64,000 nucleotides of DNA from Isoetes taiwanensis (taxonomy: Eukaryota > Streptophyta > Lycopodiopsida > Isoetales > Isoetaceae), in contig JAJEKV010000047.1 in NCBI GenBank assembly GCA_021234155.1, forward strand, positions 5,297,071 through 5,361,070, written 5' to 3'. Under the pieces are notes generated by a model. It was not told the origin of the DNA, did no database searches, and saw only the letters and a program-made list of their open reading frames with translations. The translations under genes were made by a program, and so were the position numbers. This document shows positions 1-46,580 of this stretch, piece after piece (positions within the stretch are counted from its first letter, which is position 1; each line of letters starts with the position of its first letter).

Positions 1-966
1 GATCTACAAGAGCATAACATGCAATCCTCCCTTTTCTGGTCTCCTGGCTTCAAAGATTCTGATGGTAATCTTTTGGCTTTGAAGCATCCTAAGGCTTACA
101 GGAAGTGGAGCTCCTATGGAATCATTTCTGTCAAGAATCTCTTCAATAATGGTCAGTTAATTACATGGACAAATTTAAGGAGGCTAATAGGTGGCACCTC
201 GACTGATAAAATTATTTTCTTCCATTTCAAGAACATCCTTGCTCAATGTACTAATCTTCATAGCTGTGATAACAGTCTGCTCTGGAAAATATATGGTAAT
301 AGTACATACAAGGTCAGTAAGGTATATGCCAAAATTAATTACAAGGCCTCTCCTGTGAAAGCCAGAACGAAATGGTCTATCTCTGCAGATGAGTGTAAAA
401 CTTTATTCAGAAATACCTGGAAATCTTACTGCCCCCCAAAAGTCAACTATTTCATCTGGTTGATTGCTCAAAATAGTCTTCCTAATCTTGCCTCCCTATC
501 TAAGAGAAATCCAAATATTGCTCCAGCTTGTCTATCAAACTGCCATCAAGATGAAACTTTGCAACATATTTTTAATTGTTCTAAATTGGTTACATTTTGG
601 AATTGGTTTTACAGTAAATTTGATCAATATTTCAATGTCAATATTCGAGGTAATTTGCTACAGAGTATTCAAAGTAATGATGCTTTCAAAAATACTGTCA
701 TGTTTACTGCCCTATGGAGTATTTGGAAATCCAAAAACAGGATTATTTATGGTCATAAAAATTTCTCATCTTTCTGGATCAAGAAGAGTTTCCAACTAGA
801 TTTAGAAGCTTATGTTACTGCTCACAAGAGTAAATATGCTGACACTTATGATAGAAATTGGGACCAAATTGGTAATTTCTTTAGTGGCTTCAATATATTT
901 GTTTCAAATTTACATGTAGTCAATTCTAATGCTCCTTTCTCTGTTTTTTTGGATAGAATATCTTGA
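1..966 (+). CDS. LINE ORF2 C-terminal part: post-RT region and zf-RVT zinc-binding domain (partial)
   Basis: The frame is open from base 1, so this is the 3' end of a longer ORF2; the ATG at 19 is internal. Recognisable parts are the plant-LINE linker after the reverse transcriptase and a zf-RVT domain with CPPKV followed by a Cys/His cluster (CLSNCHQDET...H.FNC) in the middle third. In plant LINEs this domain follows the polymerase and is thought to help bind the template RNA. The reading ends in ...DRIS-stop at 964-966, inside the start of the next ORF. The same domain in LINE-B (10350-11054) has similar CPPKI, zinc-cluster and FWNW features. No stop or frameshift is seen in this part. Confidence 0.88.
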   Translation, partial: DLQEHNMQSSLFWSPGFKDSDGNLLALKHPKAYRKWSSYGIISVKNLFNNGQLITWTNLRRLIGGTSTDKIIFFHFKNILAQCTNLHSCDNSLLWKIYGNSTYKVSKVYAKINYKASPVKARTKWSISADECKTLFRNTWKSYCPPKVNYFIWLIAQNSLPNLASLSKRNPNIAPACLSNCHQDETLQHIFNCSKLVTFWNWFYSKFDQYFNVNIRGNLLQSIQSNDAFKNTVMFTALWSIWKSKNRIIYGHKNFSSFWIKKSFQLDLEAYVTAHKSKYADTYDRNWDQIGNFFSGFNIFVSNLHVVNSNAPFSVFLDRIS

Positions 967-1426
967 ATTTCTAAGAGGGGAGGGCAGTAACAAATTTGAC
1001 TCTATGCTGAGCTACCATGAAGCCACCCTGTACTACAACAACACTGGTGTTACAGATCTGCAGCCACCAGGGCCAGATGCATCAGAGGATGATATCAAGC
1101 TGTACGAGGTCAGGAGGAATAGCAGTGAGAAATCTTGGGCCAAAATCTATTGCAGGGAGGTTGTGCAGATGTACTGCCTCTTCAACTTTCTGTTTATGTA
1201 TCACTATTCCTTGACAGATAGGCAGTTGAGCAGATATAGAGAGTTGTATTACTCTCATAAGATGTTAGCAGACCTTTATGGTACTCTACTGATTTTGATG
1301 GGGAAGGAGGATATACATCACTTGCTCATGGAAAGTGGATCCGAGTATAACAGTTATAAGTTTGGAACAGACAAGGGCTTTTATTGGGTGTACAACAGAA
1401 TTTTCGACCACATCATGCACCAATGA
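929..1426 (+). CDS. LINE ORF3: unrecognised 165-aa protein overlapping the ORF2 end
   Basis: I do not recognise this family. It starts at an ATG 38 nt before the end of ORF2, in the +1 frame relative to it, and encodes a hydrophobic N-terminus (MLLSLFFWIEYLEFLRGEG), a variable acidic middle, and a block around residues 70-125 with CREVVQ, RQLSRYR, YYSHK and ADLYGTLLIL. LINE-B carries the equivalent ORF at 9893-10384 with CREMVQ, RQLTRYR, YYNHK and ADLYGSLLIL, in the same relative frame and with the same ATG context (ATTCTAATG). I see no RNase H signature (no D-E-D-D pattern), the usual extra domain of some plant LINEs. Conservation in two otherwise diverged copies argues for a real product; how it is translated (reinitiation, frameshift or splicing) is unknown. 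Confidence 0.72.
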   Translation: MLLSLFFWIEYLEFLRGEGSNKFDSMLSYHEATLYYNNTGVTDLQPPGPDASEDDIKLYEVRRNSSEKSWAKIYCREVVQMYCLFNFLFMYHYSLTDRQLSRYRELYYSHKMLADLYGTLLILMGKEDIHHLLMESGSEYNSYKFGTDKGFYWVYNRIFDHIMHQ

Positions 1427-1573
1427 CTCTGCAATTTCCTGAGGAGAAACCTCATTCTTCATCTCATCCTCCATACATTAAACCTCAAATCATGAACCAG
1501 TCATATCTGCTGATGCTCAATAATTTGTCTTCTTTGTTTAACATCAAACTTAGGTACTTGGAAAGTTATAAGG

Positions 1574-1768
1574 TTTTTGCAGGTGTTTCTGGATCTCATT
1601 GTTGGAATCTCGGACTGTATAAAATGGAGCTCTCTCATAGGGGGCAAAGCAGAACTTTATATACATTTTGACAACTCCACTGATCTGCTACTATATTTTG
1701 ATCTGGTTGCTATTCTTATTGCAACTATTATTTTCTTTTCGGGATTACTATACCAAATCCTTTGCTAA
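1574..1768 (+). other. Conserved acceptor-like motif followed by a short hydrophobic reading frame
   Basis: TTTTTGCAGGTGTTT at 1574-1588 is identical in LINE-B (9811-9825, minus strand). From the AG the frame starts VF and runs to a stop at 1768, ending in a ~24-residue membrane-like segment (YFDLVAILIATIIFFSG). The LINE-B counterpart also starts VF and also ends in a hydrophobic stretch. This could be a 3' exon joined to ORF3, or only a shared 3' UTR. No clear shared donor site was found. Confidence 0.4.
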
Positions 1769-1845
1769 TGTGGAATTTTCCATTCCCTTTAGTAAGACTA
1801 TTGTATGGCTTTAATTAATTAATGGAAAAAACATCTCTCACCTTC

Positions 1846-1869
1846 AAAAAAAAAAAAAAAAAAAAAAAA
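1846..1869 (+). other. Poly(A) tail of LINE-A
   Basis: A run of 24 A follows TTAATTAATGGAAAAAAC and marks the 3' end of the plus-strand LINE copy. Confidence 0.9.
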
Positions 1870-9892: not shown

Positions 9893-10384
9893 CTATGAAG
9901 GAGGAAGTCCATGACCAGTGAAGAAGACATCATTGAAGTAGGCATTGAAGGGATCAGTGGATCCGAAGAAGTATTGATTTGGGCCCCAATTATTGGTGAA
10001 GAAAAGTCTGAATTTATCCTTGTCCTCCAGTAATATCAGCAAGGAGCCATACAGATCGGCTATAAGTTTATGATTGTAGTACATGATTCTGTACCTTGTC
10101 AGCTGCCTTTCAGTGAGAATGAAATTATGATTGGCCAAGAAAGCCCAAAGGCAGTGAATCTGAACCATTTCCCTGCAAAAGATAGATGCCCAAAGGTCTT
10201 CACTATCTTTCAGAAATCTCATGTGTCCTCTCTTCATAAGGAAAGATTCCATAGATGTTGCCAAGTCATTCTTCATGACCCGATCCTCTGAATGTTGGCT
10301 GAATGGCGAGCTGTCATCAAATTTCCTTGCCCCCTCTCCACGCAGGAAATCAAGATATTCTAGGATCATCAGAAAGGAAAACAT
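9893..10384 (-). CDS. LINE ORF3, second copy
   Basis: This is the counterpart of 929-1426. The frame opens at an ATG at 10399, but the ATG at 10384 is the one aligned with LINE-A (both ATTCTAATG), so I start there; it overlaps the ORF2 stop by 35 nt and lies in the +1 frame, as in LINE-A. It begins MFSFLMILEYLDFLRGEG, has a diverged middle, then the conserved block with CREMVQ, LTERQLTRYR, YYNHK and ADLYGSLLIL. Both copies share a 12-nt stretch (AGAATATCTTGA) that contains the ORF2 stop. No catalytic motif is recognised. The product, if made, would be about 164 residues. Confidence 0.7.
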   Translation of the reverse strand: MFSFLMILEYLDFLRGEGARKFDDSSPFSQHSEDRVMKNDLATSMESFLMKRGHMRFLKDSEDLWASIFCREMVQIHCLWAFLANHNFILTERQLTRYRIMYYNHKLIADLYGSLLILLEDKDKFRLFFTNNWGPNQYFFGSTDPFNAYFNDVFFTGHGLPPS

Positions 10385-11054
10385 TAGAATCCACAACATT
10401 TAAATTGGAAGCAAATAAATTATAATAACCCCTATAAGCGCCATAAAGCTCCCATTTCCTGTCATGATTAGTTCCAAATTTATTTTTATGAGCAGTGGCA
10501 ATAGTTTCAAAGTCAAATTGAAAGTTCATTTTAATCCAGAAAGTAGAGGGTCTTTTCTTCCCATATAAAACACGATTTCTAGCCTTCCAGATATTCCAAA
10601 GAGCAATGAAAATAACTGTATTTTTAAAACTTTCATCATTTTGGATCAAGGAAACCAAATTTCCATCATATTGAATCTCAAATTTTTCTGCAATCCAATT
10701 CCAAAAACTATTCAACTTAGTACAGCAGAAAATGTGAGACATATCTTTAATGTCATTACATCTCAAAGGGCAATCTGGCATAATGTTAGGATACCTTTTA
10801 GATAGGGAGTGTAAATTATTTAAACTGCCATTTGCAAGAAGCCATATACAATAGGAAATTTTTGGAGGGCAGTAAGAATCCCAGACATTCTTGAAGAGAT
10901 CTTTTAATTGAGCATGATTAATACCCCATTTGATCATTGCCTTGTTGGTATAAGGACCAGAGGATAGGGAAATATAGACATTTTTCACTTTGTAATCAAA
11001 CTTGCCATTCAGAGACCAATCTCCTTTCCCTGAGTTAGGAGAAAGATTTGACAA
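10350..11054 (-). CDS. LINE ORF2 C-terminal part with zf-RVT domain (after a frameshift)
   Basis: This continues the polymerase ORF after a one-base frameshift near 11050; the ATG at 11054 is incidental. It has the KVKNVY linker, CPPKISYCIWLLA, a Cys/His zinc cluster and FWNWIAEKF, as in LINE-A. It ends at 10350 in ...DPRIS-stop, inside ORF3. Confidence 0.85.
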   Translation of the reverse strand: MSNLSPNSGKGDWSLNGKFDYKVKNVYISLSSGPYTNKAMIKWGINHAQLKDLFKNVWDSYCPPKISYCIWLLANGSLNNLHSLSKRYPNIMPDCPLRCNDIKDMSHIFCCTKLNSFWNWIAEKFEIQYDGNLVSLIQNDESFKNTVIFIALWNIWKARNRVLYGKKRPSTFWIKMNFQFDFETIATAHKNKFGTNHDRKWELYGAYRGYYNLFASNLNVVDSNVFLSDDPRIS

Positions 11055-16053: not shown

Positions 16054-16080
16054 GATGTAAGGACCCCAAAACCAAAGGGG

Positions 16081-16928
16081 GTTTAAGGGGGATTTAATTT
16101 AAATGTGTTGGAGACTCAATGGTTGTGTTAATTAATGTCAATGGTAGTTATGTGTTGGTTGTTAATGTCAATGGTTGTTATGTGTTGGTTGTTATGTGTT
16201 GGGGGATTTAATTTTTATATGTTGGATGTTAATGGTTTGTGTTGCAAAAAACTTTTTTTGGCCCTTTCGGAGCCTTAGGGACACCTTCCCCCCTGGTGTG
16301 ACAAAAATTTTAGAATTAAAACCAGAAAAAAACTAGAATTCATTTGAGGCTTTCATCACCTATAGCTTTTGAATTTCATCACAATAAAACAAATAGAACA
16401 TAAATAAAAGTTACCATAAAGATAGAGCAGATTAATCCCATTATTCTGAAAGTCATAAAGTTTGCAACACCCATACACAAACATTTTTCAACTGGAATTT
16501 AACAACAGCCTTTGGCCTCCATGGATTCTTGTGGTGAGAAACCAAAGTGGGAAACTTTTCTGCTTGTTAGCACAAGGATCTAGAAGCCTTGGAATTTGCT
16601 TAATAACTGCCTCAAAATCTAAAAATGCATGGTAATTTTTTGCAAGCTTCATTCGGAATGAGCCATAAAATAATATCCAATAGCGCAATCCTGTATTAAT
16701 CAGCTGGTAGGATGTGAAAGCCTACCAAATCCGGCCGAAAAATTGCTGTTTTAGCATAGATAACTTAACCAAACATATCCATATCATACACTATCAAAAA
16801 GATCTCGGGGAGAGCTTTCCAACGCAATAAAAATCATCTGAAACAGAGCTCTGGATCAAAAGTTATGATAAGAAATGTGTTGTCGGCGGGGAAACTGCAC
16901 TACATGCGCCCTTCAAGCCCTTCATGTG
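16081..16928. other. Non-coding stretch with degenerate short repeats
   Basis: At 16107-16215 the words TGTTATGTGTTGG and TTAATGTCAATGG recur several times. The rest resembles gypsy LTR-type debris (for example GAGAGCTTTCCAACGCAATA near 16812) but no boundaries can be drawn. No coding region is supported. Confidence 0.45.
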
Positions 16929-17047
16929 CCCATTATGCACCACATACACAAAAAGAGGGCTTTTGTTGTGAGCCATTAGTTGTTGACCATTATGCACCAC
17001 ACACACAAAAAAGGGCTTTTGTTGTGAGCCATTGGTTGTTGACCATT
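16929..17047. repeat. 57-59-bp tandem duplication
   Basis: Two units start CCATTATGCACCACA and end GAGCCATTrGTTGTTGA, differing at a few bases. It lies in non-coding sequence. Confidence 0.85.
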
Positions 17048-17186
17048 GAAAAAAAAAGGCTAAAATCAATGGCTCAGAAATGGTGCACTCTAGATGTACG
17101 CATTAGTACATCCATTTGAATACATCACGAAATCATAGAAAAACCTTAGTGAAAAGCGTACAAAAACACAAAGAAAACCCCCTGTT

Positions 17187-17552
17187 ATTATGCTACATAT
17201 TCTTCATCCGATCGCAGCTCCTGGTGTCTTCTCGAAACTCCATAAGGACGTGGGATTTGAGTACTTGGGTTAAGGGGATGAAGAATGCCCCTGTGATCAG
17301 GATCAGCGGAAAGATTACCCCAGAAAGGGACTTCATGCGAAATAGGATCCATATCAGAGATAGATGATGGCAAATTTGCAAAATTTCCAAAGAGGATAGT
17401 TTCTTGTGGCTTCTCTTGGAAGGAATTAAGCTTTGGAGAACAGAGGCTCGCTCTTGAGCGGGAATTTTGGCGAAGGAGTGAAGAAAGGCTAAAGTTTTAG
17501 GGTTTTCCGAGAAATTATAGGCCATTGGAAAAGGCTCAGGTTGATACAGCAA
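17187..17552 (-). pseudogene. Small unknown gene, frameshifted
   Basis: On the minus strand, after a pyrimidine-rich leader of plant 5'-UTR type, the frame has ATGs at 17552 and 17525; the latter (MAYNFSENPKTLAFLHSF) looks like the natural start. It runs about 50 residues with LHSFAKIPAQERASVLQSLI, then sense moves to the frame of 17188-17373 (ISDMDPISHEVPFWGNLSAD ... SDEEYVA-stop). The combined product would be about 110 residues. No domain is recognised. Its 3' end, including the stop codon, coincides with a ~25-bp word (17178-17202) that ends each unit of the ~440-bp repeat elsewhere in the window. It may be the 5' end of an element related to that repeat. Confidence 0.42.
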
Positions 17553-39895: not shown

Positions 39896-41158
39896 TATGA
39901 TTGCATGGATTTGAAATCATGAATAGACACATGGCCTATTTTGGTATAAATCATGATCTATTTTTTTCTAACATGTGCCTTATTGCATTTACTATATCTT
40001 TATTGTAATAATTTTGAATGATTACATCCATCATCATCAATGATATTATCCATTATATGTGGATTAGAATGCAAACGGGTGGCATTAAAATAATTGTTGA
40101 TTCCTAGGATGGGTCCTGAGATACAATCAAGTGGTCGAAGTGAAGTGGTGTTCTCATTGAGCTTTGTAAAATCATTGAGTACAAAATGATTTCCCTATTC
40201 GGGGTAGAACTTCTGAAAAAACTTGAAATTTGAGTGCTCCAAAACTAGACAATCATCGAGAGCACAACGAAATAAGGACCACACGATAAAAAATGATTCA
40301 TCCATCGCTTAGTCTATGCAAAAATGAGAAAAATTGGCGACCGCTTCTCACCGGGATGAAAAACCCCGCCCTTTCGGGTTTTCGAGGAAAACTCTAATGA
40401 GAAATCGATTAACGCAACGCCTCCTCGAAGAATGCCCCTAGCAACAAGATGGCTCGCCGAGATAAATTAGGAAATTTTAAATTGTAAACAAACTTGGATT
40501 GGCTATACTTGCATGGAATTCCTCTAATTTCTAACCATAACTAAAGTTTCTAGAGAAAAAAACCAAAACTTTAGAAATTTTGAGTTTTATTGGAATTTGT
40601 GAAAAAATTGAAAAGTCCTAAAAGAAGAAATGACCCATTAGAAAAATTGTAGATACTTTGGCATCTTTCAAAAAATTTGAAGAACCTCATTTAGGTTTGG
40701 CAAAGTTCTTTATTTTTTGAGAATATTTATCCTATTAAAAATCTCTAAAACCCCTAAGGTCAAGCCCAAAGTTTAGCCAAATGGCGAAGAATAGCCACTA
40801 ATTTAACCATGGGCTCGACCGGCCGGAGAACCGTTGACCTGCAATGAAAAGTCTGAAAAAAGAATGACCCATTAGAAAGTTAGAAGCTGGGCATAGGCAA
40901 AAAACATCCAAGAATATAATAGCACTTTCCTCGGCTCCAGGCCCGCAAGGAAGAAACACAACACAGTACCGCCGGTGGGAACCGAAAAAACCAAAAAAAC
41001 ATCCGACAAGTAACTCCCGGAGGCTACAATTAGAGGCTTAAATAACAAGCTACAACGCCACGCCGAGAGAGAATGAAAAAGAAACAATAACTTCGGAGGC
41101 CACAGCGGTGCGCCGAGAAAAAAATGAAAAATAAGAACACATGTATTTGCAAAAGAAC

Positions 41159-41217
41159 ATGGAGGATACATCGCAAAGAAACAATGGAGGATACATCGCA
41201 AAGAAACAATGGAGGAC
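41159..41217. repeat. ~25-bp tandem repeat
   Basis: GGAGGATACATCGCAAAGAA is repeated twice with a partial third unit, inside the purine-rich block. Confidence 0.85.
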
Positions 41218-41650
41218 TAACAAATAAAAAACGAGCAACTACAACAATGGAACGGAATAATGGAGAATGAAAAAGAAGAATGCCTTGGAGGCTACAGTGC
41301 CACGCCGAGAGAAATGAAAACATAAGAAGATATGCACTTACAAAGAACATCGAAAGAAAACATGGGAGATGCCAGTAGCTGCAGAGCAGCCCGAGAAGTA
41401 TAAAAAATAGATAGAAACTAAAGATGGTCCGCCAAAGAAGGAGATGCAGGAAGCTAGATGAAACCAAAAAGAACACGAATAACTATTGTCTCAGAGGCGA
41501 CAATGTCACGCCAGAAAAGAAATGAATAATCAAATATGTAGGTCCCAAGACTGCATTAGTGAGAAAACAAAGATAAGTAAAATCCAACTATCCGAGTATA
41601 AAGCAATAGAACCATCCAAACCCATTACACGAAGAAGGGCAGGGAGGGCG

Positions 41651-41808
41651 AGAAGCTGAATAGAGCCAAAGCATGAACAATAGGAAAGCTCAAGAGAACG
41701 CCGATAAGGAACAAAGAGGAAAAAATGGGTATAAATAGGAGGGCATGATGAAGACGTCCCCATCCAAGGAATGTCGGTTCTATTGCTATCGCAATAGAAC
41801 CGTGGCAT
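41651..41808 (+). repeat. Direct repeat 1 of the purine-rich element, with TATA and hairpin
   Basis: It runs from GAAGCTGAATAGAGCC to CGTGGCATT and recurs at 46934-47131 with few changes. It contains TATAAATA at 41730-41737 and an 11-bp perfect stem at 41776-41801. Confidence 0.8.
41730..41737 (+). promoter_or_regulatory. TATA-box candidate
   Basis: TATAAATA preceded by GGG and followed by GGAGGGC, repeated in the second copy at 47052-47059. A start ~30 nt downstream would fall at the foot of the hairpin. Confidence 0.5.
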
Positions 41809-41820
41809 TCCTAGGATGGG
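41758..41820 (+). other. Long imperfect hairpin
   Basis: The core is GGTTCTATTGC, loop TATC, GCAATAGAACC (41776-41801). The stem extends outward imperfectly: CCCATCC-AAGGAATG on the left against GCATTCCTAGGATGGG on the right, giving about 27 paired positions with two small bulges. The copy at 47080-47130 keeps the core with one mismatch but lacks the outer right arm. Confidence 0.75.
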
Positions 41821-42170
41821 TCCTGAGATACAATCAAGTGGCCGATAGAAGAGGAACCTATCTCAACATCAAAGTGGCGAGACCTAATGAAAAGGATGGA
41901 GTTAAAGGAGCAGAAAAGCAGGTGAAAGAGCCAGATAGAACAAAGCAGCCAAAAAAGGAAAAGGACACAGGAGCGGCATAGATCAAGCAGAGTAGGAGAA
42001 CCAAAGCCACTAAAGTTAAGAGACCAATAAAGAGAAACCAGGACAGAAGACAAAGCTAACTAAAGAAGGGGGTGACCAAGGATGGAGCAACGCGAAAGGA
42101 ATTCAAGGAACGCACGTGAGTAGAAGCCAAATGAAGAGGCAAGAGCACGAGAACCAAGCCGAAGAGAACT

Positions 42171-42308
42171 AAAAATGGCACCAAGCATAGAGAGGTAAGA
42201 AGAATCCTAACCATCAGGACTCGAAGGGCAAAAGTAACTGAAAATGGCACCAAGCATAGAGAGGTAAGAAGAATCCTAACCATCAGGACTCGAAGGGCAA
42301 AAGTAACA
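42171..42308. repeat. 69-bp tandem duplication
   Basis: Two nearly identical units contain GCACCAAGCATAGAGAGG and CATCAGGACTCGAAGGGC. Confidence 0.9.
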
Positions 42309-44294
42309 CGTAGAATGCAAGGGCTGAGGTGACTGCAACACATAGAAACCATGAATAATCGAAGAATTGTGATAAACAAAGTAATAGGTGTGAATTTAAG
42401 AAAAACATGCGGTCTTATATAGGCTGACGGGAACAGTGGACTAAATGAAACCAATGAACGTAAGGAGCTGGATGACGTCAAGGAGTAAAGGGAACAACTG
42501 AGTACACACTACAATAATATAAAGGAATCCATATGACAACCTATAAACCTAAAATAAAGTTCTGAACCTAGAACCCCACATAATCTGCACAACACTGAAT
42601 ACCTCAAAAGCAATAGAGGTGAAAGAGAATACGAAGACGTAGGCGAAACCAGATAGAGAGATCAAATTAACAATGCAGAGTGTATCAAAAATAAAGGGAC
42701 AATGGAAAAAACAGGTCATATCAAGTATAAAGGAGTAGCATAAGGAATGCAAGAAGACTAGATGAAATTGTTAAGAAAAACAAAAACGAGAAAAAAGGAG
42801 CCAAGCAGGAAAATGGAGGAGCGCAAGCGTGTATGAATGGAAAGCAGAAGCAAGAGGAATGGAGAGAAAAGAACCATGGAGGCAAAAGAGCGAAGGAAAT
42901 GGAAAAATGGCGCAGGTTAAACAAGCAACTGGATAAGATGACAACAAATAGGACGTAATGAATGCCAGAATAAAGAAATAATGATAGCAACACATGAAGC
43001 AGACAACTAGAACACCGAAGTCAATCGAAGCAAAGTAAAAACAAATAGCAATTAATGAACCCCAAAATTCACGACTATATCTAATGCAGGTTGAAGAAAC
43101 CATAAATCATACGTGACGTCGAGGAATCTGTCAAAATTGATGCAAACAAAAGAAAAAGAGCTCTATAAGATAAAACATGGCACCATGCATTCTATCTAAC
43201 AACTATGCATCAAATCGTAAAACATGCAACAGATCATATGAACGATCAAGCACCACAAGTGATCCACATAAAATAAGACCAAATATATAACTATAAAGAA
43301 AGGGACCAAATATAGGCGATAACAAATGAGCCACATAAAAAGGAAATCACCTCCTAGGATGGAACCAATATACTGTTGCCCACAATAATACTATCCTTGA
43401 TGGTAAAAAATGGGAAGGCTTCCAAGTGGCAATGTGAAATATGCCAGCACAAACCATCTGTTATGGGGTAGAAAGGCAAAATCCGTTAAGCACAGACGAT
43501 TGATGCACCCGCAAAATAATGATGGAACCAGTGAAGTGAAACAAGAGAAAGGGAATGACGAAATGAAAAGGAAAGTAAAGCACGAAGCAGATGGGAGAAC
43601 TTCGAAAAGCACGCAAAATAGAGAAAGAAAAAATCGTTATGAAATAAGAGAAAGCGAACCAATAGTAATGTGAACTCTACAATTCTAGAGAATAAGGGAT
43701 ACAAATTATATGAGACATAATAATCATGTTGGACCTAATGTGCTAGGCAAGCATCAAGGAAAATCCAGCATAGCCTCCAAGCTGAACATAGCATCAAATG
43801 CAAAAGAGAGACAAAGAACGAAAGGTGTAGAAGGAACAAATGAGAGTAGGCAGAGTAAAGCAAGAGGACCACTTGAGCTAAAGGCGACAACATAACTAAA
43901 CTGACGCCAGACATGGGAGAGCTAGAAACAAATCGGTTGAAACAAATAGGCAAAAGCTGAGAGCAATGAAATTATACAAAATACCGACGGAAAAGAGTAA
44001 CGAAAATAAAGGCACAAAGTACTTGGCAAAATAATCAGACGAACTAAAAAAGAAACAGAATACATAGAATATAAAGTAACTGAAAAGGTGGCATCAAGAA
44101 ACAAAACAGAGCAACATAGAGCAAAAGAACAACTGCCACCAAGAGACTAAATGTAGCAATGGGAAATTAAGTTGAGTGAGGCAACTAGAGCAAAATGTAT
44201 ATGACCAAATATGCATCAAACATACCATGAAGAATGTTGTGGATCAAAAAATGTTATACAAATGAAACTATATAGAGCACCTAAGCCCTCTTCT

Positions 44295-44515
44295 ACCAAG
44301 GCACTCAACCAAATGCAAAAATAACAATATGCAAAATCTGAAGAAACAATGTCCTAATGCCGAATGTCAATATTAAAAGCCTCCATAAAATTGTCTAGCA
44401 CTTCGTCGACCAAGGCACTCAACCAAATGCAAAAGCTCTATAACAATATGCAAAATCTGAAGAAACAATGTCCTAATGCCAAATGTCAATATTAAAAGCC
44501 TCCACAAAATTGACA
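44295..44515. repeat. ~114-bp tandem duplication
   Basis: Two units share ACCAAGGCACTCAACC, CAATATGCAAAATCTGAAG and GTCAATATTAAAAGCCTCCA. Confidence 0.9.
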
Positions 44516-46580
44516 AGGTTTGAAAATCAGAATCTAATTAAAGACCTAAGGGAACTATATGATAAAGGACGGAAGACCACCTAAGCAAGACACGATATCA
44601 CCCCAGATAAATAATGTGAGTTAGAAGCAGTAAAACATAAATAGAGACCCAAAAAGATAGGGGAAAATGAACCTATGGACTTGAAAAATATACATGGATC
44701 CATATCAAAACCTGATGATCACTTGGTAACCAGCGAAGAATTGAGGCTGTAGCGTGGGCCATATAGCCCAATGGTCTACCAAGTATCATTTGATGTCGCA
44801 ATCGCAATTGTTGTGCAAATGGAGAGTAGAGTCGCGCTTCCCCGAACACGAACCCGAACTCCAAAGCACTCAAGCCATAAGTCCCCCTGTGGAAAGTAAC
44901 TCGAGCGAACCCCCGACTTAATGTCCCGTGCTCCGGCTTAAAGGTCACCTGCCAAGCTAGGTGGAAAATAAATGTACAACATAGAACCAACGGAGTTAGG
45001 ATATGTAGGTGATACACCTAAGCTGCTTAGATCACCCTACAAAAATGAAAAAAGGTTAGAGAGGAAACTCAGAGTGAAGGGTGATCGTGAAATTTCTCCA
45101 ATTGAAAACATCTCCATCCAAACCGTAGAACAATAAACAAGCCACAAAGAATAGTAACAGAGGTGCAAAGAAAAAACCAATTCCTAAGACGGGTCCTAAG
45201 ATACAAACAAGTGGCCACAATATTCAAAATAATAAGACACACGCCCGTGTAACCATCGGGCAAGCTAAAAGAACGAAAATATAAAATCTTATGCCTATAT
45301 ATATTATGATGAATCTTAAACAAATAACACTCATGTATACACGATTAAAACTGGTTCATGCAAAATGGGGCACAAATACCTTATTAGCGGTGCTACAAAA
45401 AACAACCATGTCCCTTCGAAAGCTAGACAAACCATACATGGGCAAACCGTAGAAAAAAGGAGAATGAGGAAAGCATAGAAACAAGGGGAGATGGGAAATC
45501 ATAGGAAATAGAAACCCCTAACACATGAAGAAAAGGGGAACAAACCTATAAGTCCACAACGAACAAGCAGGAGAAAGAAAAAATGAAGAAACCATAGAAA
45601 CTAGAACGAGAGAAGGGCAACCATAGGAACAAAAAACACCAAACGTGAAAAACAACAGAGCAAACAGGAACTCTATCCTACCATACTTAAATAAAAACAT
45701 GTCTCATTACGAAAACAAAGCTTGAAAATGCTAAACAACAGAGCAATGAATCGAGAGCTTATAAAGGAAAAATGCAAATACAGACGAGGAACAAAACCAC
45801 TATGAGAAACCACACGAATACTCTGGGATAAGCAAAAACCCACTTTAAGCAAGGAGGATATGGGGCAAGCAACCAAATAAAAAACAATAAAAAACAAGGG
45901 AGCACGATAAAAGAACAAACACAACCATGAAAAATTATAAAAACAGCAGAAAACTGAAAGAAGGGCACAAATTATAAAAAACAACAGAAACTTAACAGAG
46001 GGGCACCGACACGGTAACGCACCCTCAAGCAACTGCGGCAGAGGCCGAGGCTGAGGCGGTTGCAGGCCCCTACCAGGGAATAATCTGCCCGGGATGAAGA
46101 ACCAAACAGAGGCTGGATCGGATCAGAATAGAATGGATGTGAGTAGACTTGGACAACTGAAAAAGCAACAGGGACCTAGCTATGGAGGCAGAAAGCAAGG
46201 CGTGGCAGGAAGCAAATCCGGAAAACTCAAACTAGATAAGGGAGCGGATCCCAGAAAGCAGAGGACTTAAAGAAAAGACTAAAGAAAAACCTTCATGGAA
46301 ACGATGCAAAGAAAGCAGAAGCTTAAGTAGCCCTTTTGCCCGACCATCCTGCAGACGGCAACGCCGAAAAGAGATGATTCCATAACAGAAAACCATGAAG
46401 ACGCGCGAACTAAAACCGGAAGAAACCAGAGAGGTTAATCCAGGAAGGGCGGTTCACCTCAGGCAAAGGAAGGCACAAAAAAGAAGAGGGCAGGGAAAGA
46501 AAGGCAAAGGCACCACAAACCGCCACAAAGAAACCATCGGGATCCATAAGCATCCAAGCAAACAAGTGAAATAGATCCAG

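Follow-up and report, generated by a model that had tools for sequence, protein, structure and literature searches.

Does an extra reading frame behind the zinc finger of a plant LINE polymerase encode a protein, and how would such a frame be translated? This question is raised by a stretch of 64,000 nucleotides from Isoetes taiwanensis (contig JAJEKV010000047.1, assembly GCA_021234155.1), referred to here as the window, in which two LINE copies, LINE-A and LINE-B, each carry such a frame (ORF3). A preliminary description had reported a frame of about 165 codons behind the zf-RVT domain in both copies, with the same start and shared conserved blocks, and had suggested that selection maintains either a third protein or an extension of the polymerase. 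Both frames exist (Table 1), and the encoded proteins show 38% identity over 167 alignment columns (E 6e-35, single comparison), with the described blocks present in both. The LINE-B frame opens at 10399, and position 10384, given earlier as its start, is the second ATG of the frame.

The ORF2 of LINE-B matched the Pfam families Exo_endo_phos (1.5e-14), RVT_1 (5.9e-31), and zf-RVT (9.1e-09), spread over two frames, and part of its ORF1 matched DUF4283 (E 0.0011) and zf-CCHC_3 (E 0.076), both below the cut-off score. An ORF2 with an endonuclease, a reverse transcriptase (RT), and zf-RVT, together with a 3' poly(A), which in LINE-A is an A run at about 1845-1869, corresponds to the features expected of plant L1-clade LINEs. 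We regard the element as a variant of plant LINEs. LINE-A starts outside the window; the upstream ORF1 of the same element is a 769-codon open frame in L081. LINE-B is not an intact copy, since its ORF2 (14206-10350, minus strand) lies in two frames, with the remainder at 14206-11009 and a break near 11050. Its ORF1 is interrupted (16058-17196, minus strand), with the start at about 17552-17200, the rest from 16053, and ~1.1 kb of other DNA between them; by eye, the middle of ORF1 that is present in other copies is missing at this interruption. Elsewhere in the window, positions 40001-46000 display a strong A-over-T skew on the plus strand (0.34 to 0.48) over 6 kb, the maximum of the window.

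Table 1. Features of the two LINE copies in the window; a slash marks the putative exon end or its homologous place.
Feature	Position	Strand	Basis or remark
LINE-A ORF2 3' part (zf-RVT and tail), putative upstream exon	1..871	+	open frame 1-966; zf-RVT E 8.9e-12
LINE-A putative intron, 85 nt, 49% T	872..956	+	in-frame junction; homologous stretch lost in L183, L184, L187
LINE-A putative intron signals	donor G/GTAATT at 872; branch-like CTAAT 926-930; acceptor TAG 954-956	+	
LINE-A ORF3 frame as marked	929-1426	+	165 aa
ATG marked as LINE-A ORF3 start, probably not the functional start	929..931	+	pN/pS 1.0 to E-Y-L; absent in A2
LINE-A ORF3, read as C-terminal exon of ORF2 (EYLEFLRGEG...)	957..1426	+	156 codons including split first codon, plus stop
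LINE-A ORF2 stop (TGA), which would be used under intron retention	964..966	+	sequence, frame list
LINE-A 3' UTR and poly(A)	1427..1869	+	by eye
LINE-B ORF3 frame as marked	10399-9893	-	168 aa
LINE-B ORF3, first conserved codon to stop	9893..10360	-	frame list, alignment
LINE-B ORF2 tail with zf-RVT	10353..11054	-	frame list, Pfam
LINE-B place homologous to donor: TATG/GCGCTT, not GT	10440..10441	-	
LINE-B TAG homologous to acceptor	10360..10362	-	TAG in 71/71 B copies
LINE-B AUG, 9 nt before E-Y-L, 17 nt before ORF2 stop	10367..10369	-	likely ORF3 start; kept in 70/71 B copies
LINE-B ORF2 stop (TGA), conserved place	10350..10352	-	same place in 69/71 B copies

Searches of the 1.66 Gb genome with the LINE-A and LINE-B ORF3 proteins yielded at least 3271 and at least 3222 first-look candidates, respectively, and the 150 candidates scored for each protein were all strong (weakest E 7.5e-73 and 1.2e-69). 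We aligned 82 copies, comprising the two window copies and 80 fetched ones (mostly, not only, rows without stops), and refer to copies near LINE-A as group A and to those near LINE-B as group B. Counted from the conserved residues E-Y-L, at least 149 codons are open in 82/82 aligned copies, and at least 145 codons in 14 of 20 further copies, which were selected for another reason and are mostly rows with stops. The copies are related by descent, so that copy counts are not independent.

Nei-Gojobori comparisons within the groups, which are descriptive because the pairs share ancestry, gave ORF3 dN/dS values of 0.18, 0.11, and 0.08 for group A in dS bins of 0.1-0.3, 0.3-0.5, and 0.5-0.74 (n = 13, 12, and 21 pairs). 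For group B, the value was 0.31 at dS <0.1 (9 pairs), followed by 0.14, 0.10, and 0.11 (31, 31, and 33 pairs). Six of the seven bins over the 82 copies therefore lie at 0.08-0.18, and the youngest is the one at 0.31. The ORF2 tail showed values of 0.10-0.22 in the 54 copies in which it is open, with 28/82 copies left out. Judged by these substitution patterns, ORF3 is a real coding region under strong purifying selection in hundreds of LINE copies. The dN/dS values, and the pN/pS values given below, support the selection proposed in the preliminary description; against the two refutations considered there, other family copies do keep the frame open, and synonymous and nonsynonymous changes accumulate unequally.

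The profile searches and structure prediction suggested at the same time did not connect ORF3 to a known family. The best Pfam matches were NDNF_N (0.14) for the window ORF3s and a match at 0.03 among 61 alignment members, and the best PDB matches had E values of 0.4 (one sequence) and 0.071 (profile). PHROGs gave 0.19 at best, and NCBIfam gave TrmB TIGR00091 at 0.018, with 14.4 bits against a cut-off of 112.65. None of these is a credible relative. ORF3-pattern stretches were found in viral contigs (321) and prokaryote contigs (232), and none of them was confirmed. Comparison with the ORF1 and ORF2 of the element itself reached a best E of 0.31 with a negative score, and thus no repeat was visible. 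Neither of the window ORF3s (E up to 1) nor any of the 61 alignment members (E up to 0.1) matched RNase H, the usual alternative at this position, in agreement with the earlier statement that ORF3 is not an RNase H. Two AlphaFold2 runs produced poor models with mean pLDDT values of 42.7 and 56.6, containing helices only, from which we claim no fold, and a Foldseek search with the second model returned 0/20 matches with E up to 0.001. The position of ORF3 after the zinc finger at the polymerase end suggests a nucleic-acid-binding tail, which might help the polymerase hold RNA or target DNA.

The start of the conserved region is sharply defined. A TAG directly precedes E-Y-L, sharing its G, at 142/142 junctions and in 162/162 rows of a larger set, which contains four loci twice. 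The first 82 copies were located by a motif including TAG; of the junctions added to these to reach 142, the 30 from group A came from a list that required TAG, and the 30 from group B did not. An A-type pattern with TAG occurs at 122 genomic places, and the same pattern with another base for the A at none. A shorter A-type pattern with another base for the T was found at one place (CAG), and a B-type pattern without the A of TAG at one place (L185). The locus L186 (C1044:5238300-5239700) is a group A copy with CAG for TAG at the putative acceptor, in which the putative intron is still present.

Variable sites fall on ORF2 third positions before the TAG and on ORF3 third positions after it (71/82 copies; 11 rows dropped). 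Before the TAG, group A showed a pN/pS of 1.0 in the ORF3 frame versus 0.36 in ORF2 (codons -82 to -12), and pN/pS was 0.11 over ORF3 codons 1-18. Because the selected frame switches at the TAG, with pN/pS of 1.0 before it, the selected ORF3 in group A is, on this substitution evidence, one that starts with E-Y-L rather than with an ATG. A start common to the two copies is accordingly not seen: from the first conserved codon, the ATG at 929 is 27 nt and the ATG at 10399 is 39 nt upstream, the group A stretch before E-Y-L is unselected in the ORF3 frame, and the ATG at -39 is absent in 18/71 B copies. The preliminary description had overlooked the putative intron and had taken an ORF2/ORF3 overlap for a shared start. 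In this overlap, ORF2 third-position changes are fewer than upstream, both in group A (2.93 vs 4.50 per site, p 0.027) and in group B (1.93 vs 3.75, p 0.008), with 15/82 rows dropped from the counts. This scarcity of ORF2-silent changes could be explained by dual coding.

In group A, the region before the TAG resembles a small intron, with GT...AG ends, a branch-like site, and a T-rich body (47% T inside versus 26-27% in the 60 nt on either side). The junction itself looks like a plant 3' splice site, consisting of CTAAT, a T/C-rich stretch, and TAG. Removal of 872..956 from LINE-A yields ..RNWDQI-EYLEFLRGEG.. in a single frame to the ORF3 stop; in unspliced form, the same 85 nt also encode the last part of ORF2. 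At the donor, 75/79 parsed copies have the codon GGT (GGC in 2 and GAT in 2), with 8/87 A rows unparsed, among which L063 and L105 do show GGT. In comparison, GGT accounts for 96/208 Gly codons upstream of the donor. Among the GT columns conserved at 88% or more between -880 and -40, the donor alone (30/33 A copies) has the phase that joins the frames, and group B has no such column. The ORF2 tail within the putative intron is about as constrained as the remaining tail (pN/pS 0.36 vs 0.41), which suggests that a short unspliced product is also used. Counting against the splicing model, the 142/142 junctions have TAG and never CAG, which is more than a 3' splice site requires. In L060, L061, and L080, one common deletion before the overlap, with the same edges by eye, has removed the donor region, and a source element carrying this deletion seems to have spread.

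Sublineage A2 of group A carries an inserted base before the TAG, and its ORF2 ends at the TAG or just before it. Its ORF3 frame contains a TGA 15 nt before E-Y-L and no AUG thereafter. Nevertheless, pN/pS is 0.05 over ORF3 codons 1-16 and 0.24 over the first 50 codons (17 copies, 136 pairs). A uniform AUG start for group A was ruled out by this sublineage, in which ORF3 is still selected with no in-frame AUG. The AATG is out of frame in A2 yet kept in most copies, and therefore an AUG in group A is not necessarily a start codon. Such an AUG stands at -27 in 62/71 A copies, and may be used outside A2. For the ORF3 of A2, neither a start codon nor a single frameshift site appears able to serve, whereas splicing would be indifferent to the inserted base.

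An exact search of the genome for the predicted spliced joint of group A (the A joint) gave 0 matches. When up to 3 mismatches were allowed, 9 matches were obtained, compared with 2 and 4 for reversed controls. Six of the 9 were inspected: L183 and L184 are real LINE junctions, L057 is a copy with a small deletion, and L180-L182 have no LINE match. The B joint with up to 2 mismatches gave 35 matches (controls 3 and 5), most of them, by eye, from an unrelated-looking repeat, and the single match fetched (L187) is a real LINE junction. Compared with L076, the A-type L183 has a left block reaching 843, with the donor at 844, and a right block from 928; it retains LINE sequence to near the 3' end. 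The A-type L184, compared with L079, has a left block to 838, 4 bases short of the donor at 843, and a right block from 928. The B-type L187 aligns with L030 in a left block to 858, with the donor at 859, and a right block from 940. Its relatives L030 and L031 do carry a GT donor. L187 also has a second gap inside ORF3, with no GT-AG edges by eye.

A sham joint on the donor side gave 0 matches (reversed controls 1 and 1), and one on the acceptor side gave 47, many from one unrelated-looking repeat and with no usable control. The joint searches sought the exact joint, so deletions with other edges are invisible to them; such deletions do occur among the fetched copies (L035, L057, L060, L061, L065, and L080). 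The three intron-less copies were each found once, and all are diverged from their nearest compared relatives. They stand against 122 (A) and 157 (B) intron-bearing pattern places, numbers that do not form a rate because the strictness of the searches differs. We infer that the same joint arose in at least three lineages and that L183, L184, and L187 are of spliceosomal origin, which would show that splicing happened but not its frequency. Splicing may be rare noise, by analogy with human SpIREs.

On the LINE-B side, the GT donor is missing in 60/66 parsed B copies and present in 6/66 (5/71 B rows unparsed). A start/stop pair is conserved in this group, with an AUG at -9 in 70/71 copies and the ORF2 stop at +8 in 69/71, and the AUGs at -39 and -24 are missing from some copies. 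Codon 3 of the B ORF3 is CTT in 65/66 copies, and elsewhere in the B ORF3s CTT makes up 162/481 CTN codons. The third position of this codon shows no change on the tree, which is a modest signal, as the same is true of 3/65 four-fold-type sites counting it. Restart after ORF2 termination is probably the best reading of the group B ORF3, as a weaker guess than splicing in group A.

We consider it probable that ORF3 is a C-terminal module of ORF2 in a separate exon, reached by optional splicing in group A and probably by restart in group B. The module would be conserved and, according to the poor models, mostly helical. In group A, a small spliceosomal intron (about 85 nt) would separate ORF2 from ORF3. 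Retention of the intron would place the end of ORF2 at the acceptor or a short way beyond it and leave an RNA able to act as template. Upon removal of the intron, the frame would continue from the zinc finger to E-Y-L, giving a longer polymerase, which may be made and needed today. Unspliced RNA would be the usual propagating form, and the intron would persist in this way in nearly all copies examined. In group B, ribosomes would end ORF2 and probably restart at the AUG 17 nt upstream of the stop. With regard to the earlier alternatives, the intron-less copies and the frame of the junction favor a polymerase extension in group A, where the data do not support a third protein initiated at an ATG of its own and, in A2, exclude one; for group B, a separate, coupled protein is the better guess.

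Intron loss is the expected outcome in elements that multiply via mature RNA, because a spliced copy would be an intron-free element. Had spliced RNA been a good template and had the long polymerase sufficed, intron-free copies should have become sources. A tentative explanation, to which we assign somewhat less than an even chance, is that the intron is kept by need: unspliced RNA would provide the genome and the short ORF2, spliced RNA the longer polymerase, and both would be required, while a sister branch would have swapped this arrangement for stop-restart. Because both products would be needed, selection would hold the intron against loss by retrotransposition.

Coupled restart could instead operate everywhere, so that groups A and B alike would make ORF3 as a distinct third protein and the intron-less copies would be accidents. 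The start/stop pair and the CTT kept in group B, the frequent AUG at -27 in group A, and the fewer ORF2-silent changes in the overlap would fit this possibility. We nonetheless regard it as unlikely, since A2 keeps codons 1-16 without an AUG and behind an in-frame TGA, and most A2 copies keep the AATG though it is out of frame. Moreover, the ORF3 frame shows no selection in the group A stretch that follows the AUG, and the ORF2 stop lies 35 or 41 nt past the TAG in 44/71 A copies, far from the AUG.

A programmed +1 frameshift in the overlap would generate an ORF2-ORF3 fusion without splicing. ORF3 does lie in the +1 frame of ORF2 in group A (outside A2) and in group B absent local indels, and a stop follows the switch point in group B and in LINE-A. 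The inserted base of A2, however, alters the frame relation, and ORF2 there ends at or before the TAG; the codon before the TAG varies, and the exact intron-less copies are left unexplained. We judge this mechanism very improbable.

Just as improbable, in our estimation, is the expression of ORF3 from a separate short RNA with its start within ORF2, or through splicing of a distant upstream donor to the TAG. The nearly invariant TAG would agree with such a scheme, as would L185, in which non-LINE DNA is joined exactly at GAATATC, and L075 and L177, which keep only about 7 nt before the joint. However, no conserved phase-correct donor was found within 880 nt, nor was one seen when five 5' ends were inspected by eye. 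Compared with the collected LINE DNA, the sequence upstream of the joint is without a match in L185 and L177, and in L075 it matches only the stretch L095, which simple 5' truncation would explain. In all three loci, no more than about 8 nt of LINE sequence precede the TAG joint, and other or unrelated DNA lies before them, a boundary that may reflect chance truncation or a preferred 5' end. As junctions with other exons, L075 and L177 were rejected, since a LINE part starting about 7 nt before the joint indicates plain truncation.

Finally, a frame kept open by recency with no function, as could be imagined given the many young copies in LINE families, is refuted by the substitution pattern, with mean within-group pS values for ORF3 of 0.74 and 0.70 against pN of 0.12-0.13, and has a negligible probability.

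Parts of the proposed arrangement are known from other elements. Plant Copia elements such as EVD (shGAG) use optional splicing to obtain a second product, Gag, with the unspliced RNA as genome. The likeness lies in optional splicing and a second protein product; the difference is that EVD is an LTR element producing Gag, whereas the present element is a non-LTR element in which a polymerase tail would be gained. LINEs of the SART1 type use stop-restart between ORF1 and ORF2, as may occur in group B, but there from ORF2 to ORF3. Among the open-access papers searched, we found no LINE with a conserved ORF2-ORF3 intron.

In plant L1s of the Ta11 type, ORF2 carries an archaeal-type RNase H at its C terminus (PMC5348765). 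They resemble the present elements in an ORF2 with endonuclease, RT, and zf-RVT and in an extra C-terminal domain, and possibly in ORF1, where the DUF4283 match is weak here; in contrast, the domain added here differs from RNase H, occupies another frame, and would be reached by splicing or restart. In insect R1/TRAS LINEs, ORF2 terminates in a viral helicase domain, likewise a lineage-specific module added to a LINE polymerase (PMC4686597, PMC5563155). Their domain lies within ORF2 and is recognizable, whereas ORF3 has no known match and lies behind the putative intron. Human L1 SpIREs are, as the intron-less copies here probably are, genomic LINE copies from spliced LINE RNA; they derive from 5' UTR/ORF1 splices and have generally been considered dead ends (PMC5860796). 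In the present elements, by contrast, donor and acceptor look conserved, and the join lengthens ORF2. Penelope-like elements also spread with introns kept in their copies, and this retention has been discussed in connection with an antisense template (PMC3846280). They belong to another element class, and optional splicing would take the place of the antisense template here.

The putative intron has been kept over deep divergence, with silent sites near saturation, which indicates that the spliced form does not prevail by itself and opens the reason for this to testing. Two related lineages seem to arrive at one and the same protein in different ways. ORF3 would represent a polymerase module outside the known classes, and the effect of losing it can be assayed. 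In genome annotation, such ORF3s would be overlooked or named as separate genes.
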